From Porphyromonadaceae bacterium W3.11 (GTDB lineage Bacteria > Bacteroidota > Bacteroidia > Bacteroidales > Porphyromonadaceae), in NCBI GenBank assembly GCA_030434245.1, contig JAUISX010000005.1, positions 1 to 64,000 on the forward strand: a stretch of 64,000 nucleotides of DNA, in the 5' to 3' direction. Below are positions 1,231 through 37,526 of the stretch, one piece after another (the first letter of the stretch is position 1; every line of letters begins with the position of its first letter). The notes beneath the pieces are model-generated. The model did not search any database. It worked only from the letters and a program-made list of their open reading frames with translations, and had not been told where the DNA came from. Both the position numbers and the translations under genes were made by a program.

Positions 1231-4200
1231 TAACTATATACAACGCACAAGGAACTAAGATTATTGATGTGGCCAACCTCGAGGGGAGCTACTGCGATCG
1301 CTCGATCATGGGTGGCAGCACCCTCCAGTTGGTGGTTAAATCTGATAAACCTATTGATATCCCTCTTAACTCTTATGTGGAGTATGAGGCACGTCGCTAT
1401 ACATTGCTCTACCCAGCGAGCATCAAAAAGCAACACAGCAAGGAGTTTGATTACACCCTGCTTTTTCACGGTGAGGAGGAGCTCCTCTCCTCCTGTCTCA
1501 TCAAGGATATCTCGGGTGGCATACCTTACCGAGTGAAGTTTGCCATCACAGCTAAACCGATTGACTTCGTCCGCTGTATCGTGGACTCGCTCAATGAGCA
1601 CTACGGCGGTGGGTGGAGTGTTGGCAATGTGATCGAGGCGACCGAACAGACACTCGCCTTTAGTCATGAGTACTGCCTCGGGGCCATCTCTAGAGTGGCG
1701 GAGGTGTTTAATACTGAGTTTAGCGTCGACAATAAGACGGTATCGCTCGGCAAGGTAAGCATCATGGAGGATAACCCTCTACCGATGAGCTATGGCAATG
1801 GTAAGGGGTTCCGCCCTGGCACTGGGCGACACAATGACGGTAAAAAGTCGGCGATCGGCAAACTCTATGTCGAGGGTGGCACACGTAATATCGACTACTC
1901 AACCTACGGAGCTCAAACACTCCTCCTACCTAAATCTGCAACGCTACAGTACAATGGTCGTACATATCATACGGATGCGCATGGCATGTACATCACCTGT
2001 GATCAGGCAATCGGCACTGCGGAGGATAGCTACGATGGATCCGCCGTATATCCGATGCGGGAGGGTACAGTGTCTGAGGTCATTGAGGAGGCAGATGGAT
2101 ACGATTTTACCGACACCTCTATCCCTGAGAGCTTGAATTTTAACGACTACCGTATCAAAGGCGAAAAAGCGGTGGTGGTCTTTCAGACGGGAGCACTCAC
2201 AGGGCGGGAGTTTGCTCTTGTGCAAACGAAAGGCAAACTCAGTGGCTATATCCACTCCGAGCGAAAGTTTAAGCTCGTGAGCGAGGAGCAGGATGGATTT
2301 ATGATGCCTGGGGGCAACTTTGTCCCCAAGGAAGGTGATAAGTACGCCATCTTCAATATCACCCTCCCTGCCGAATACCTCTCGAACGCTTCTCAAAGGC
2401 TCTTCGAGGAGGCAGTACGATACTTCGATACGGTCATTAATCCTCCCTATATCTTTTCTGGGGAGGTAGATCCCATCTGGGCGAAGAAGGAGTGGCTACG
2501 CATCGGTGGGTATATGCAGCCAGGTGGGCATTTACTTTTTAGCGACCCGCAGTATCACCCCGAGGGATCTGTCATCCGAGTGACGGGTGTCCGCACACTC
2601 CTCGACAAGCCCTACGCTCCACAGCTCACCCTCTCCAATGCACCAGCTGCACTCAGTGTGAGTAACGCCCTCTCCAAGCTCGAAGCAGACAAGGTGATAG
2701 CCGAGCGAGAGCGGAGGGCACAGCAACGCTCGCAGCGACAGGACTACCAGCAGGCGCTGGAGTTCATCGGGATGGTCGAAAAGGCTATTGAAGGGCTGGA
2801 GGGCTTTACGGCGAGGATAAAACCGAGCGTCGTGGAGACCATGGCAATTCTTATAGGTAGCCAGGCGACACAGTTTGGATTTGTCCAAGCGATTAATTCG
2901 CTTGAGGCTGCCCCTTTTTCTGTGAATTATGACCCCAGCACCAAGCGAGTAATCATCAGTAAGGGCATCATTAGACATCAGACCATCGGCATTACCGATA
3001 TGACTGCTAATCGACCAGCTACCGATTACCGCTACTGGTCAATCCCTGAGTACATCTCACCAGCACTTACTGATGATTTCGCCAGCTACTACATTTATGC
3101 GAAGGTAGATAGAAATGGGCAAACTGGTAATTATTTATTATCCGAAAAACCTATAGAAATGGAGAGTGATTCTCTAAGCTATCATCTCCTTATTGGTACT
3201 TTATCCAGCATTGTGGATGGCGATAGAGCGTACAATAAGCTATACGGTTACAGCCTTTTCACTCCAGGTCAAATGGTCCTAAATACCATCTCGAGCACAA
3301 ACGGTGCTATGACCATCAACCTCGAGACAGGCGAGATCTACTCCGATGCGATCCACTTCCGTCGCCCCGATACTCAAGAGGAGACGAACCTCATCGACTA
3401 CATCGATGAGGTGGACACGCATCACCCTATCATCAAGAATGGCACCTGGTGGCGCTGGGATGGCACGCAATATGTGGACACGGGAGAACCAGCGCAAGGT
3501 GCAGACGGTAAGGATGGAAAAGACGGCTTACAAGGATTACAAGGGAAAGACGGCAAGGACGGACTCCCTGGTCGTGACGGTAAGGATGGGAAAACTCAAT
3601 ATACCCACATCGCTTATGCCAATAACGCATCGGGTGGTGGCTTCTCTCAGTCTCCTACTGGAAAGGCTTATATTGGTATGTATGTGGACTTCGTCGCCAC
3701 AGACTCGAGTGACCCAAAGAAGTATAAGTGGTCGCTCATCAAGGGGGCAGATGGGCGTGACGGCATCGCTGGTAAGGCAGGAAAAGACGGCCGAACCCCT
3801 TACCTGCACATCGCTTATGCTAATAGTTCGGATGGTCGGCAAGGGTTTAGCGTGAGCGATAGCCAAGGCAAGACCTATATCGGCACTTACACCGACTTTG
3901 TGAAGGCGGATAGCACAGATCCAACTCAATACAAATGGACGCTCATTAAAGGCCGCGATGGTCGTGACGGTAAGGATGGAAAAGACGGCTTACAAGGATT
4001 ACAAGGGAAAGACGGCAAGGACGGACTCCCTGGTCGTGACGGTAAGGATGGGAAAACTCAATATACCCACATCGCTTATGCCAATAACGCATCGGGTGGT
4101 GGCTTCTCTCAGTCTCCTACTGGAAAGGCTTATATTGGTATGTATGTGGACTTTGTGCAAGAGGATAGCAGCGACCACAAGAAGTATAAGTGGTCACTGA

Positions 4201-6272
4201 TTAAGGGTGCAGATGGGCGCAACGGTACCCCAGGCAAGGCGGGTGCAGATGGTCGCACCCCTTACCTGCATATCGCCTACGCCACATCAGCAGACGGAAA
4301 GAAGGGTTTTAGTACAACTGTGTCAGCAGGCAAGACCTATATCGGCACTTACACCGACTTTGTGAAGGCGGACAGCACTACTCCATCAGATTACAAGTGG
4401 ACGCTCATTAAGGGTAAAAAAGGGGACCGAGGTCCGACTGGTCCGAAAGGCGACGGTCTAGACGTCAAGGACACTAGAAATGATAACCAACTGCCAAACT
4501 GGTATCGTAAGAATTACCGCTATACCACCGTCAAGGAGTTTAAGTTTCAAGGTGTTATTGAAATTCCGAAGGTCTGGAGGGATGGCTCGTATTGCACGCT
4601 TGAGACGACAGTCAATTGGGGTGATAAAAGTGGCGGTCGAGTGACGCAGAAAGCGACTCTTAACAGCGGTCAGGAGTTGTATCGTGTCGGTAGTGCTGAT
4701 GATAGTGCGTGGGGCGAATGGAGCAATCTCAAAGCGGAGGTACAAGAGATCAACGCTGGACTTTCCAATGCCAACACCCTCATCTCATCGATCGAGACCA
4801 TCACTAAGCAACTGAAGGAGGGCAAACTTGATGCGAGCAAGTTCGATGACATCCGCTACCTCACCGACGCCCTCCAGCACGGCGAGACCACCATAGCTGG
4901 CGGTCTTCTGCTCACGAAATCCATCCTCATGAGCAACAAAGATGACGAGATCACTACCGCCATCTCTGGCTACTCCCATGGCGGCGGTGTAGCGTTCGAA
5001 GCTGGGATTAAGAACTATAAGCAAGAGAACCACACCTCCCGCGTGGTAATCAACCACGACGGCTCAGCTCGATTCGGAGACATGTACCTGAACGCTGACA
5101 AAGAGGATGTGGTGAAGTTTGTCGACCAGTCATCGGGTGAAAATCACGAGTATCTGAAGTTTGGTGGAACTGCCCCCAGCGAAAGCTACATGAACGATCA
5201 GAGTACAGTGATTAAAGAGTTCCCGATGCCGTCTGTACGAGCTGAAAACAAGAGTGGCGAGTTCCTTATTGTGAAAGAAGATGAGAGTATCGAAAGCAAC
5301 AGAGAGATAAGGCATGAGATTGAATTGACAGCGACAGCTGAGGCAGTCGCAACTCGGGAAGATCTTAACTCCGGAGGACTATCGATTATGTCAGCCCGTT
5401 CTGCTTATGAGCTAGGAAGTGACCGAGGAGACAGAATAATTAACTATCTGCCTGCCTGGGCGAATAGCACTGCTCATGTGGAAGTCAAAGTGTACAATAA
5501 ATCTGGAGTCGTCGTCTGGAGCGACACAAGCACGAAAGTGACAGCAAGTGCACACGCCAAGGGATGCTCTGTCTCATACACGGAAATCTTACCCCTCGAG
5601 GATATCCAAGATGTGCAGACCCAGACGAAGAAAGTATATATGCGCATTCCAGCAAATGTAATGGTAAAAGGGTACAAATGGAGGGTTTATCTTGTGGTGA
5701 ATGGCTCTGCAAGCGACAGAGGAAGTTCTTATCGAGCATATACAAATGCGGGTAAAGAGTTCGTCCCTTACGACCTCTCAAAACCCTTTGTGGCACTAGC
5801 GAAAGACCGTGTAGCGTTTTTCTTTGGGCGACAAAGGCAGATACTATTCAACTACTTAAGCAACTGGGTGGTGAAAATAGTTGGGGATGTCCTCGTCCAG
5901 GGAACACTCAAAGCCGACATCCTCGAAGCTGACGAGTGGAAAGGCAGCGGTGCCGTCCTCGCTGGTGCCATGTTTGATGAGAATGGCAAAGAGCTGAAGG
6001 GCTTCGGGAAGTATAAGAATAGAGCAGGAATGTCATCTGGCAGTACAGTCTATTCTTATAATAGTAAGCTCTACACTGTCTACCACTCCATCCCACACAG
6101 CCGATACGTGCCGGTCGTGCAGGTCTCAGGAGAGACAGGAAACAATGGCGGATGGTCTCTTACGCCACGAGTCTATAGTGTCTCGGCATATAGCTTTACG
6201 GTGGGCATAATCACCAATGGAGACAATAAAACACGAAATGGGCTATCCTACGTAGCCTACCAAGCTGATTAA
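1227..6272 (+). CDS. Large phage tail hub/fibre protein with collagen-like repeats
   Basis: A 1681-residue protein. About residues 1-480 resemble the tail-hub/endopeptidase-type N-terminus that anchors fibres (inferred from order and size). About 480-750 contains a helical stretch rich in Arg/Gln and then a beta region. Residues about 754-1080 alternate Gly-x-y collagen-like blocks (754-791, 838-856, 906-944, 993-1011, 1061-1078) with four modules of about 55 residues that begin His-Ile-Ala-Tyr-Ala and end Tyr-Lys-Trp-x-Leu-Ile-Lys-Gly. These are typical trimeric fibre building blocks. The C-terminal 550 residues probably form the receptor-binding or host-specificity part. A 188-bp exact duplication lies inside the repeat region. 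No catalytic motif was recognised. Confidence 0.7.
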   Translation: MITIYNAQGTKIIDVANLEGSYCDRSIMGGSTLQLVVKSDKPIDIPLNSYVEYEARRYTLLYPASIKKQHSKEFDYTLLFHGEEELLSSCLIKDISGGIPYRVKFAITAKPIDFVRCIVDSLNEHYGGGWSVGNVIEATEQTLAFSHEYCLGAISRVAEVFNTEFSVDNKTVSLGKVSIMEDNPLPMSYGNGKGFRPGTGRHNDGKKSAIGKLYVEGGTRNIDYSTYGAQTLLLPKSATLQYNGRTYHTDAHGMYITCDQAIGTAEDSYDGSAVYPMREGTVSEVIEEADGYDFTDTSIPESLNFNDYRIKGEKAVVVFQTGALTGREFALVQTKGKLSGYIHSERKFKLVSEEQDGFMMPGGNFVPKEGDKYAIFNITLPAEYLSNASQRLFEEAVRYFDTVINPPYIFSGEVDPIWAKKEWLRIGGYMQPGGHLLFSDPQYHPEGSVIRVTGVRTLLDKPYAPQLTLSNAPAALSVSNALSKLEADKVIAERERRAQQRSQRQDYQQALEFIGMVEKAIEGLEGFTARIKPSVVETMAILIGSQATQFGFVQAINSLEAAPFSVNYDPSTKRVIISKGIIRHQTIGITDMTANRPATDYRYWSIPEYISPALTDDFASYYIYAKVDRNGQTGNYLLSEKPIEMESDSLSYHLLIGTLSSIVDGDRAYNKLYGYSLFTPGQMVLNTISSTNGAMTINLETGEIYSDAIHFRRPDTQEETNLIDYIDEVDTHHPIIKNGTWWRWDGTQYVDTGEPAQGADGKDGKDGLQGLQGKDGKDGLPGRDGKDGKTQYTHIAYANNASGGGFSQSPTGKAYIGMYVDFVATDSSDPKKYKWSLIKGADGRDGIAGKAGKDGRTPYLHIAYANSSDGRQGFSVSDSQGKTYIGTYTDFVKADSTDPTQYKWTLIKGRDGRDGKDGKDGLQGLQGKDGKDGLPGRDGKDGKTQYTHIAYANNASGGGFSQSPTGKAYIGMYVDFVQEDSSDHKKYKWSLIKGADGRNGTPGKAGADGRTPYLHIAYATSADGKKGFSTTVSAGKTYIGTYTDFVKADSTTPSDYKWTLIKGKKGDRGPTGPKGDGLDVKDTRNDNQLPNWYRKNYRYTTVKEFKFQGVIEIPKVWRDGSYCTLETTVNWGDKSGGRVTQKATLNSGQELYRVGSADDSAWGEWSNLKAEVQEINAGLSNANTLISSIETITKQLKEGKLDASKFDDIRYLTDALQHGETTIAGGLLLTKSILMSNKDDEITTAISGYSHGGGVAFEAGIKNYKQENHTSRVVINHDGSARFGDMYLNADKEDVVKFVDQSSGENHEYLKFGGTAPSESYMNDQSTVIKEFPMPSVRAENKSGEFLIVKEDESIESNREIRHEIELTATAEAVATREDLNSGGLSIMSARSAYELGSDRGDRIINYLPAWANSTAHVEVKVYNKSGVVVWSDTSTKVTASAHAKGCSVSYTEILPLEDIQDVQTQTKKVYMRIPANVMVKGYKWRVYLVVNGSASDRGSSYRAYTNAGKEFVPYDLSKPFVALAKDRVAFFFGRQRQILFNYLSNWVVKIVGDVLVQGTLKADILEADEWKGSGAVLAGAMFDENGKELKGFGKYKNRAGMSSGSTVYSYNSKLYTVYHSIPHSRYVPVVQVSGETGNNGGWSLTPRVYSVSAYSFTVGIITNGDNKTRNGLSYVAYQAD
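3504..3691 (+). repeat. 188-bp direct repeat, copy 1, inside tail fibre gene
   Basis: This segment is identical, base for base by reading, to 3966-4153. The two copies are offset by 462 bp, exactly 154 codons, so the reading frame is kept. It encodes one collagen-like block plus most of the first fibre module. Identity at third codon positions implies recent duplication or gene conversion. Confidence 0.9.
3966..4153 (+). repeat. 188-bp direct repeat, copy 2, inside tail fibre gene
   Basis: Second copy of the repeat at 3504-3691. The identity stops where the codons for Val-Asp-Phe diverge (TTC in copy 1, TTT in copy 2). The region between and after the copies holds the related but diverged second module type, giving an A-B-A'-B' layout. 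Confidence 0.9.
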
Positions 6273-6338: not shown

Positions 6339-6911
6339 TTATTGCTTTCCCTCCGCTTTTAATGCCTCCCACTCCGCTTTGGTGACCGGTATGGCAGTAA
6401 AGGCCTCCTTGAAGAGCCTATACACTTCATCGTAATCCCCCGCCTTGTAAGCCTTGCGAATCCCCTCGCTCGCCTCCTTCATCACGGCATTAGGGATGTA
6501 CGCACCTACCTCTCCTTCTACGATTGGGATAAGGATACGCACATCTCGCCAGTCGAGGAATCCCTCGTTCAGAGAGCCATCCTCTGAGATGATCATTTCT
6601 CCCCACATCTTTATCCTGGCGTTAGCGATATCTCTTTGTTCATCGCCGACTCCAATGTTTGTTTCACGTTTATAGATTGGATCGTAAAAGTAAAATGCCA
6701 AGGCCTTCTCCACGACCTCCTTTGGTGTCAAACGCTTGAACTGATCCCCCTCCACGGTGGGGATTGTATTATCCTCAATTACCCTCATACCCTCATTTTT
6801 AATGTTAACATAAACGAAAGCACCATCCTTGAGCACCTTCGGCTTTTTGTCCCCGTTACACGCTGTAAGCAATGCCACTACTGCCAGCATCATCACTAAT
6901 ACCTTTTTCAT
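6339..6911 (-). CDS. Prophage-carried lipoprotein, unknown function
   Basis: A 190-residue protein with a lipoprotein signal peptide: Met-Lys-Lys, a hydrophobic core, then the lipobox Leu-Thr-Ala-Cys with Cys at residue 18. The mature part is hydrophilic, mixed alpha/beta, with a helical C-terminus rich in Lys, Glu and Ala. No known domain was recognised. It is transcribed against the tail operon, with its own candidate promoter and a shared terminator. That arrangement is common for lysogenic conversion (moron) genes expressed while the phage genes are silent. Whether it acts in surface exclusion or something else cannot be told from sequence. Confidence 0.7.
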   Translation of the reverse strand: MKKVLVMMLAVVALLTACNGDKKPKVLKDGAFVYVNIKNEGMRVIEDNTIPTVEGDQFKRLTPKEVVEKALAFYFYDPIYKRETNIGVGDEQRDIANARIKMWGEMIISEDGSLNEGFLDWRDVRILIPIVEGEVGAYIPNAVMKEASEGIRKAYKAGDYDEVYRLFKEAFTAIPVTKAEWEALKAEGKQ

Positions 6912-6946
6912 ATTATTTTAGTTTTTATAATTAATTGATTCTTTTA

Positions 6947-6954
6947 CAAATATA
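6947..6954 (-). promoter_or_regulatory. Candidate -7 box for the lipoprotein gene
   Basis: On the minus strand this reads TATATTTG, matching the Bacteroidetes TAnnTTTG box, 36 bases upstream of the lipoprotein start. A TTTG at the expected -33 spacing is not evident, so this is a partial match. Confidence 0.4.
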
Positions 6955-7039
6955 CACTAATCCGCGTATATAGTTAGATAAATCCGTCAATAGTTGCGGA
7001 TTCGCCCCCATCATTGTGTTGTATCTCCTGATATAATCT

Positions 7040-7069
7040 TTTGCAGTTCCAATAATTTCTGTATATTTG
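7040..7069 (+). promoter_or_regulatory. Strong Bacteroidetes-type promoter of KilA-N leader RNA
   Basis: TTTG (7040-7043) and TATATTTG (7062-7069) are separated by 18 bases, close to the primary sigma-factor consensus of Bacteroidetes. The predicted start (about 7075) falls at the first bases of the 17-nt inverted repeat at 7073, so the transcript would begin with that arm. Confidence 0.7.
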
Positions 7070-7072
7070 TCG

Positions 7073-7237
7073 TGCTAACAATCTAAGAGGGCGGAAGCTC
7101 TCGACACATAAACGAGGGCTATTTTTATATCCGCTCACTTGGAAAAATAAAACTGCGGTCGTACCCCTGCGTGGTAGGTTAATGCCCCACAAACAAATCT
7201 CTTGGATTGTTAGCAGCAGGAAAGGCGACCGCTTTTT
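7073..7237 (+). ncRNA. Structured leader RNA or small RNA upstream of KilA-N gene
   Basis: Two 17-nt arms (7073-7089 and 7199-7215) pair along their whole length with a single G-U pair. Inside, an 8-bp hairpin (7096-7103 with 7113-7120) is enclosed by GCGG/CCGC (7091-7094 with 7131-7134). The loop segment GCGGTCG (7155-7161) is complementary to CGACCGC (7226-7232), which lies outside the long stem, so the two helices cross as a pseudoknot. The second strand is followed directly by five T's. A good promoter starts the transcript at the first arm. No known RNA class was recognised. It could be a leader controlling the KilA-N gene by attenuation, or a free-standing RNA. Confidence 0.6.
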
Positions 7238-7250
7238 ATTACTTACAATT

Positions 7251-7856
7251 ATGGTACAGAAATCGACCAACATCTTTGCCTACGAAGGCAACAACATCAC
7301 CTTTGCTAAGGGCGACGACCTTATGATCAACGCAACCCAAATGGCACGACCTTTTGGAAAAAGACCAGCCAAATGGCTTGAACTTCCATCTACTCAAGAA
7401 TTCATTTCTCAGCTCTCAGCTATCCGAAAATCGGATAGGTTAATCGAAACAGTTAATGGTGTTGGTACATGGATGCACGAAGATGTAGCACTTGAATTTG
7501 CAAGATGGTTGTCCCCACTGTTTGCTATTTGGTGTAATGACCGTATCAAGCAACTTCTCCTTGATGGTGTAACCTATCTCGAGCCGAAGGCCTTTAAGGA
7601 CGTGCCGATGGTGATCACTTCAGAGGGTAAGCAAGGGTACTACTTCCGTGATGTGCTGAGCGCTGTGGGGTATTCTCGTATGAGTGGCACCGCAAACGAC
7701 TATAAGAAGCGGTACCCCAATGACTTCTTTCAACTCGCAGGTCGTAACTATTGTAGCCCTCGCATCGCACAGCTCATAGGGAAGAGGGCTGAGATTCGAC
7801 AGCTCGAAGCCGAGATGATGCAGTCACTCCCAAGTGGAGAGGAGGTGTGCTTATGA
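7251..7856 (+). CDS. KilA-N domain phage regulatory/antirepressor protein
   Basis: A 201-residue protein. Residues about 1-105 form a KilA-N DNA-binding domain: an N-terminal strand ending Ala-Lys-Gly-Asp-Asp, the motif Met-Ile-Asn-Ala-Thr-Gln-Met-Ala, Trp-Leu at about 45, a Gly-Thr-Trp-Met-His-Glu-Asp-Val-Ala segment, and the Phe-Ala-Arg-Trp-Leu-Ser-Pro helix. The C-terminal part looks like a second small phage domain. Such proteins act in phage lysis-lysogeny switches and as antirepressors. The start at ATG 7251 is chosen because it gives the usual short domain N-terminus; an upstream ATG at 7182 lies within the structured leader. The gene overlaps the next by four bases. Confidence 0.8.
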   Translation: MVQKSTNIFAYEGNNITFAKGDDLMINATQMARPFGKRPAKWLELPSTQEFISQLSAIRKSDRLIETVNGVGTWMHEDVALEFARWLSPLFAIWCNDRIKQLLLDGVTYLEPKAFKDVPMVITSEGKQGYYFRDVLSAVGYSRMSGTANDYKKRYPNDFFQLAGRNYCSPRIAQLIGKRAEIRQLEAEMMQSLPSGEEVCL

Positions 7857-8107
7857 TGCGTGCTGGAAAAGCAGTACAGGATGCTCGAATGAGGTTCTTG
7901 GATGACTTATTCTCGTGGGATTCGGCTACTAATATGTATCGGAGCTTATCCAATGCATGTCTGCGACTGACGATTAACTATCTCTATTATAATGAGAGTA
8001 CAGGGGTAATACCGACTACGAAGGATATTGACGAACTCAGACTACTGTACGACTTGGTAGATTGGCTCGGCAATGTGGCTGAAGCCGAAGGGGAGGAGTT
8101 GAAGTAG
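7853..8107 (+). CDS. Small protein coupled to KilA-N gene, unknown function
   Basis: An 84-residue protein whose ATG overlaps the preceding stop in an ATGA arrangement, so the two are probably co-translated. It is mostly helical with aromatic residues (Trp, Tyr, Phe) spread through the first half and an acidic Glu-Ala-Glu-Gly-Glu-Glu C-terminus. No family, signal peptide or membrane segment was recognised. Position suggests a phage accessory protein that works with, or is regulated alongside, the KilA-N protein. A GTG at 7847 is another possible start. Confidence 0.6.
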   Translation: MMRAGKAVQDARMRFLDDLFSWDSATNMYRSLSNACLRLTINYLYYNESTGVIPTTKDIDELRLLYDLVDWLGNVAEAEGEELK

Positions 8108-8130
8108 TCGCTATTAAGTGACAAATGAGG

Positions 8131-8165
8131 AAGCCCGGGCTATTTCGGTAGCCCGGGCTTTTTCG
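8131..8165 (+). terminator. Strong rho-independent terminator after KilA-N operon
   Basis: Perfect 11-bp stem (8131-8141 with 8150-8160, arm AAGCCCGGGCT), an 8-nt loop and a run of T's. It closes the KilA-N/small-protein transcript 24 bases after the stop codon. Confidence 0.9.
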
Positions 8166-8557
8166 TTCGTTCGCCGCTCGACCACCACCAGAGAGGCACC
8201 CGAATAATATTATAAATGTACGTGTGCGTCACAATCAAATGAGCCGTTTCGTTTTTCATCCTCTCCATTTTCTATACAACATAGAGAGCCATTTCGTTTT
8301 GTCTTTGAGAGCCGTTTCGTTTCGGCGATTATAAATTCAAGAATAAACACAGCTACATTACACGTTTTTTTTATTTTTCAAGTAGTATTATTTCAATAAT
8401 CGATAAGAGTGTCGCTTTTCTAAAGCTAAATCTTTTTCGAAATTCTAAAGATGAATTATTTTTACTAACTACAGGTGATTTTAAGACTCTCTTCCATACT
8501 CTATTCTTAATTCTAAATAAATTATTGTTTGCTATTGGCGGTATTGAAGAATTTTAT
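8166..8557. other. Non-coding gap at the prophage/host junction
   Basis: About 390 bases without a credible gene. The first third carries three copies of a 14-bp direct repeat (listed separately). The rest is AT-rich and featureless until the promoter of tRNA-Pro. The prophage right attachment site probably lies here, but no matching left site is available in the window. Confidence 0.5.
8241..8322 (+). repeat. Three 14-bp direct repeats, GAGCC(G/A)TTTCGTTT
   Basis: Copies at 8241-8254, 8286-8299 and 8309-8322 differ only at the sixth base. Spacings are 45 and 23 bases. Short direct repeats next to a prophage end are often arm-type integrase or excisionase sites or repressor operators. Which of these applies, if any, is not shown. 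Confidence 0.6.
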
Positions 8558-36971: not shown

Positions 36972-36986
36972 CTTATGCTAAAGTAG

Positions 36987-37058
36987 TAGCCCATAGGGGA
37001 ATCGAACCCCTCTTTCCAGAATGAAAATCTGATGTCCTAGCCGATAGACGAATGGGCC
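36987..37058 (-). tRNA. tRNA-Glu (anticodon TTC), copy 1
   Basis: A 72-nt cloverleaf on the minus strand: acceptor GGCCCAT/ATGGGCT, anticodon stem CAGA/TCTG with loop carrying TTC, T arm GAGGGGTTCGATTCCCCT. No CCA is encoded. It is identical to copy 2 at 37413-37484 and lies downstream of rpsT in the same transcript. Confidence 0.95.
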
Positions 37059-37105
37059 AATATGTGATCTCTTATCCTTATTTCAGGATAGGATGGTCTA
37101 CTTCC

Positions 37106-37369: not shown

Positions 37370-37412
37370 ATTAATAAATTACTTCTATACTATTATTTAA
37401 TCATTATAACTG

Positions 37413-37484
37413 TAGCCCATAGGGGAATCGAACCCCTCTTTCCAGAATGAAAATCTGATGTCCTAGCCGATAGACGAATGGGCC
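37413..37484 (-). tRNA. tRNA-Glu (anticodon TTC), copy 2
   Basis: Same sequence as the copy at 36987-37058, first in the transcript, about 35 bases downstream of the predicted start site. Between it and rpsT there is a 43-base spacer. Confidence 0.95.
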
Positions 37485-37526
37485 AACTTCAGGCAAGGAT
37501 TTTTAAATCCTCTCATTAAGCGATTG

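Follow-up and report, generated by a model that had tools for sequence, protein, structure and literature searches.

Upstream of a prophage KilA-N gene in the 64,000-nucleotide stretch of Porphyromonadaceae bacterium W3.11 DNA analysed here (the window), we found a conserved RNA element that is predicted to fold as a pseudoknot and whose relatives carry an arm complementary to the start of the next gene. We consider it probable, judging by sequence comparison, that the element is a phage-borne antisense RNA which, like c4, keeps the antirepressor from being translated; its scaffold shows no match to that of c4. Its features are collected in Table 1.

Table 1 Features of the element and of the genes behind it, in window coordinates
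Feature	Position	Strand	Basis
Promoter box TATATTTG	7062-7069	+	Conserved in alignment A1; taken to be of the Bacteroidetes -7 class
a', 5' arm of S1; like the downstream gene start in many relatives	7073-7089	+	Letters, covariation
P2 hairpin with U-tract internal loop (7121-7129) and inner stem (7096-7103/7113-7120)	7089-7136	+	MFE fold
b', 5' arm of S2 (GCGGTCG)	7155-7161	+	Each of seven positions paired in 41 or 42 of the 42 rows of the core alignment, with 4-5 standard pair types each
TACCCCTG block; CC pairs with 7224-7225, CCTG with 7217-7220	7162-7169	+	Invariant in A1, required by search motif
P5 hairpin with TAAT loop	7171-7190	+	Covarying, poorly aligned; 69.8% of cells paired
a, 3' arm of S1; antisense segment in relatives	7199-7215	+	Covariation, complementarity tests
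CAGGAAAGG block	7217-7225	+	Invariant in A1, required by search motif
b, 3' arm of S2 (CGACCGC); stem of likely intrinsic terminator	7226-7232	+	Covariation
T-run (TTTTT); likely 3' end of ~165-nt RNA	7233-7237	+	TTTT at most 28 nt past GGAAAGG in 39 of 43 rows; predicted termination
KilA-N gene (201 aa), a likely antirepressor and the candidate target of regulation	7251-7856	+	PF04383, 76.7 bits
ORF of 86 aa that overlaps the KilA-N gene at its end	7847-8107	+	Pfam and PHROG scans (E 0.01) gave no match

Occurrence of the element and its relatives

The element occurs in two identical copies in this genome, the identity spanning 6793-8333 and thus including the genes behind it. These copies sit in two related prophages that are ~96% alike, and the window opens with the right-hand part of one of them. 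Three GAGCCRTTTCGTTT repeats, at 8241, 8286 and 8309, lie just before the prophage copies diverge near 8333, and together with that boundary they suggest that a transposable phage of the Mu type ends here. A gene for a collagen-like tail protein contains a direct repeat of ~450 bp (3504-3949 and 3966-4411, 86% identical) and has a different middle in the second prophage. Elsewhere in the window, two identical tRNA-Glu genes (36986-37060 and 37412-37486) stand 426 bases apart.

Among 50,697 phage records, the two with DNA matches to the element were Porphyromonas gingivalis phage005a and b (E 0.005, with 72.5% across 53% of the query), and in phage005b the match directly precedes a gene annotated as anti-repressor; a DNA search of 99 other genomes among the relatives gave no match. 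Further relatives were collected through phage records, a search of viral contigs for the motif TACCCCYG with CRGGAAAGG, and a covariance model. Among the matches listed, the motif search gave 50 unique ones, of which 43 were kept, the window included. Six (L080, L084, L102, L123, L124 and L150), which have neither promoter box nor U-tract, were dropped by eye as chance matches, and L038, cut at its 5' end, was left out of the 43 rows; L114, cut at its 3' end, was left out of alignment A2 and of the antisense tests (n = 42).

A covariance model of the core, R1, whose filters lose weak matches, found the element in 3 of 395 sampled genomes of the class and 4 of 395 of the phylum, the own genome included in both counts. 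Such a sparse, scattered distribution is what one would expect of phages. Weak matches to the covariance model were seen at L183, L172 and L035:7267, and the 3,086 bases of a Bacteroides LoVEphage that matches the KilA-N gene gave no match to the model. Because the promoter appears to be of a Bacteroidetes type and relatives of the KilA-N protein come mostly from records of Bacteroidales and other Bacteroidota, the viral contigs carrying the element presumably infect Bacteroidota.

In agreement with the first-pass annotation, which could assign the RNA to no known class, an Rfam cmscan at the gathering score of the window and 17 loci with relatives gave no family match at the element; in the window it found tRNA and RNase P only. 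Permissive scans of 501 and 351 bases did not list RF01695 and gave only sub-threshold chance matches at the element, and no described riboswitch aptamer in Rfam matched it. Among the mostly open-access papers that our literature searches covered, none was evidently on this RNA. The family seems to be previously undescribed.

Conserved crossing helices, promoter box and likely terminator

The element consists, in order, of the promoter box, the 5' arm a', the U-tract hairpin, the pseudoknot and the T-run. Helix S1 comprises 17 bp including one G.U pair, and it is crossed by helix S2, which is extended by the TACCCCTG and CAGGAAAGG blocks. The 7-bp S2 helix with its five T's, noted in the first reading of this DNA, can be read directly in the window, and the 8-bp hairpin that had been noted inside S1 is present in the MFE fold. 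On the plus strand, the region 7065-7250 folded with z = -5.68, and 0 of 200 shuffles were equally good, compared with z = -2.06 and 8 of 200 on the minus strand.

The pseudoknot claimed from the window letters was borne out by its homologues. In an alignment of 43 of them, the window included, made from sequence only and with rows weighted for similarity, the ten strongest covarying column pairs all fell in S1 and S2 with no structural prior, so that both crossing helices carry co-varying pairs; one of the ten (columns 148/234) is one base off in the window row owing to a gap. Changes on both sides were found in eight of nine counted S1 pairs and in all seven b'/b pairs of S2. In the named structure 88.2% of cells pair, compared with 65.6% after shuffling and 32.2-43.3% after sliding, the slid control being biased in favour of a structure taken from the same alignment. 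Cells changed on both sides numbered 277 as against 84 after shuffling; the number of pairs with two-sided change was a less striking measure (23 versus 20.3 shuffled, with 15 of 500 shuffles reaching 23). The S2 cells hold 13 U.G and a single C.A, and since U.G exceeds C.A, a plus-strand RNA is likely. TACCCCYG, TAAT and CRGGAAAGG are invariant in A1 and A2 partly as a result of the motif search, which required them; the pair 7168/7218 covaries independently of that requirement, and relatives found only by the model deviate from the motif (GGACAGG in L008 and L174, TACCTCCG in L197).

The first-pass annotation had also proposed that S1 and S2 could be alternative states. When a nested fold was made to keep S1 or S2, the energies were -60.9 and -63.3 kcal/mol, a gap of 2.4 kcal/mol, and are indeed near each other; both helices are conserved together, and they may either alternate or coexist as a pseudoknot.

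A conserved box, TATATTTG, is present where a near-consensus promoter had been called, and five of its eight bases are kept in at least 90% of the rows of A1. We take it to fit the Bacteroidetes -7 promoter type and not sigma-70. Transcription would start near the foot of S1, at ~7073, and S2 with the T-run is likely an intrinsic terminator that would end an RNA of ~165 nt. A stem and U-run of the kind expected of an intrinsic terminator or attenuator stand ahead of the gene in 39 of 43 rows. A run of at least four T's, resembling an earlier terminator, also follows the first hairpin region in all 43 kept rows, which were kept partly for it.

Antisense match of the S1 3' arm to the downstream gene start in relatives

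For 42 of the 43 loci, we compared arm a with the sequence that follows the T-run. The summed score for own regions was 959.5, and none of 20,000 permutations reached it (best 747), in a test that, like those of covariation, corrects only partly for kinship. The own downstream region was the best match for a in 17 of the 42 loci and among the top three in 31. Exact runs of at least 8 nt, all near an ATG, were found in 30 of 42 own pairs and in 3.5% of mismatched pairs, and the mean energy of the duplex between a and its target was -17.8 kcal/mol for own and -10.0 kcal/mol for other targets. Complementarity to the translation start of the target, as in c4, is thus present in relatives, 12 of the 42 having no exact 8-nt run.

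Nine later relatives, which are all the model matches at E <1 outside the 43 and were recognised after the hypothesis had been formed, gave exact runs of 8-13 nt in eight cases. Runs of 13 nt in L008 and L181 were reached by shuffled targets in 0 of 2,000 trials each; a 10-nt run in L195 was reached in 5, 9-nt runs in L174 and L182 in 15 and 13, and an 8-nt run in L196 in 42 of 2,000. L197 has a 10-nt run, counted by eye, and L010, a weak model match of 15.8 bits, one of 8 nt; the ninth, L173, has a 4-nt run only (1992 of 2,000). Where two tandem modules share one contig (L166), the own targets gave runs of 10 and 10 nt and the cross targets 4 and 5. In another contig with two elements (L045 and L125), the own runs were 6 and 8 and one cross run, at 9, was higher.

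In the relatives, the S1 3' arm is thus complementary to where the next gene begins, and this indicates control by antisense pairing rather than by a riboswitch. Of the first-pass annotation, the reading as a pseudoknotted RNA with a promoter box, ahead of an antirepressor-type KilA-N gene, is supported.

The repeats at the promoter and the start codon might instead be DNA operators of a phage repressor, with RNA pairing as a by-product. Arm a' does resemble the target in many loci; in a symmetric test of 47 loci, however, the target was closer to the complement of a in 30 and to a' in 13, with ties in 4, and the covariation of the arms is that of an RNA, plus-strand U.G pairs included, which makes such operators hardly credible. 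The symmetric test replaced a position-by-position comparison of the target with a and a', whose outcome varied with the anchored pair.

A second segment, b, also matched a site just past the T-run (456.5, permutation maximum 414.5); its score was at least 10 in 21 of the 42 loci, counted by eye, and the own site was the best in only 3 of 42. This possible second partner in about half of the loci would also suit an attenuator or riboswitch acting in cis, in which S2 terminates transcription unless a signal refolds it and the pairings of a and b shut the start codon within the same transcript. The T-run that follows S2 in most rows and the near-equal energies of the nested S1 and S2 folds agree with such a device. 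The arms differ between phages while a still fits its own target, which is more like antisense specificity, even though a cis interaction would produce an identical pattern; we regard the cis device as unlikely.

The window copy itself does not follow its relatives. Its arm a scored 13 against the start of its own KilA-N gene (rank 41 of 42), which is not above chance and falls short of c4-like complementarity, and no match to b was found past its T-run; by eye, an 8-of-9 match with one G.U lies just before the ATG, at 7242-7250. Because L008, a KilA-N relative with the element, keeps an exact 13-nt antisense match, the target in the window has probably drifted or the gene start been replaced, or else the window copy may act otherwise. 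A search of the genome for a second target of the window's a gave as exact sites only the two copies of a itself and as one-mismatch sites only the two copies of a'. Sites with two mismatches numbered 24, and all 28 sites compare with 7 for the reversed control.

Genes downstream of the element

An antirepressor-type gene (KilA-N, Bro-N/ANT, Rha or P22_AR_N) lies within 2.6 kb downstream in 27 of 42 loci, the window included, 24 of these 27 calls resting on Pfam. The element thus shares with c4 a position on the same strand upstream of an antirepressor gene or operon in these 27 loci. The antirepressor-type gene is first in line in 12 of the 42 loci, among them L121, whose open frame starts 88 nt past the antisense site, and otherwise stands behind at least one small ORF. 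Tail genes take the place of the antirepressor in 6 loci (L059, L077, L113, L118, L125 and L157), where the element and at least one small ORF precede genes for the tail tape-measure or other tail proteins. Neither kind was found in 9 of the 42, two of which have fewer than 450 bases downstream.

Leader ORFs of 78-79 aa that are alike precede P22_AR_N, Rha-like or Bro-N/ANT genes across contigs. In L064, L135, L111 and L168, RNAs that are also alike stand with such ORFs before different antirepressor types, as if a cassette had been exchanged.

In many loci the small ORF, of ~60-130 aa, starts at or just past the antisense target, which is the arrangement of a unit resembling type I toxin-antitoxin systems, with the RNA as antitoxin of the leader ORF. 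Such a unit is nevertheless very unlikely, as the first gene is itself of antirepressor type in the 12 loci mentioned, nine leader ORFs scanned had no PHROG match, and 30 first-gene proteins matched 7 Pfam families, none of them a toxin family.

Discussion

Taken together, these results argue for the c4-like antisense RNA named at the outset. We propose that the conserved promoter box would start an RNA that folds as the S1 and S2 pseudoknot and stops at the terminator. In the relatives, arm a is complementary both to the RNA's own 5' arm a' and to the site at which translation of the next gene would begin, and in about half of them a stretch complementary to b follows the T-run, in an order that would permit both pairings on one mRNA. 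Arm a, with b where present, would then pair with mRNA that reads through the terminator, so that antirepressor translation would be blocked, either directly or by way of a short leader ORF, which would help to maintain lysogeny.

c4 lies upstream of its target on the same strand, and in P1 a small ORF, icd, stands between c4 and the antirepressor (c4-icd-ant); Citron and Schuster are said to have described it in 1992 as a processed 77-base RNA. In P1 and P7, this short RNA pairs with its target around the ribosome-binding site, which represses synthesis of the antirepressor, and it determines heteroimmunity between related phages (PMC12197685), and the table of a 2010 survey places it in Proteobacteria and phages (PMC2864571). 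The element resembles c4 (RF01695) as a same-strand RNA before an antirepressor, antisense to the start region in relatives and often with a small ORF between RNA and antirepressor. Unlike c4, it matches neither RF01695 nor any other Rfam family, likely has a terminator of its own where c4 is reportedly processed, and has a pseudoknot in which an internal segment mimics the target; its cellular matches, sought within the phylum of the window, come from there.

The sar RNA of phage P22 is encoded inside the ant region on the other strand, unlike the element, which lies upstream on the same strand. The two are alike in that sar, too, is an antisense RNA, one that interferes with the initiation of ant translation (PMC12197685). 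The phage small RNA 24B_1 of Phi24B shares an antirepressor as its proposed target, having been proposed to lower d_ant (PMC12197685); it is excised from a longer transcript and measures 20 nt (PMC4426718), whereas the element is predicted to be ~165 nt long.

A further-reaching form of the proposal, which we put forward tentatively as possible rather than probable, is a lysogeny switch made of RNA only. Its arm, held by a mimic of the target, would either be locked in the pseudoknot that builds the terminator or clamp the antirepressor start, and joint change of arm and target would divide the phages of Bacteroidota into heteroimmunity groups, with a scaffold that has no relation to c4.

If Bacteroidota phages achieve this control of the antirepressor with a different scaffold, this would suggest that antisense guarding of the antirepressor arose more than once. 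Natural pairs, such as the tandem modules on one contig, make the specificity directly testable, and if the proposal is true, oral and gut phages would carry a testable immunity code that can be read from sequence.
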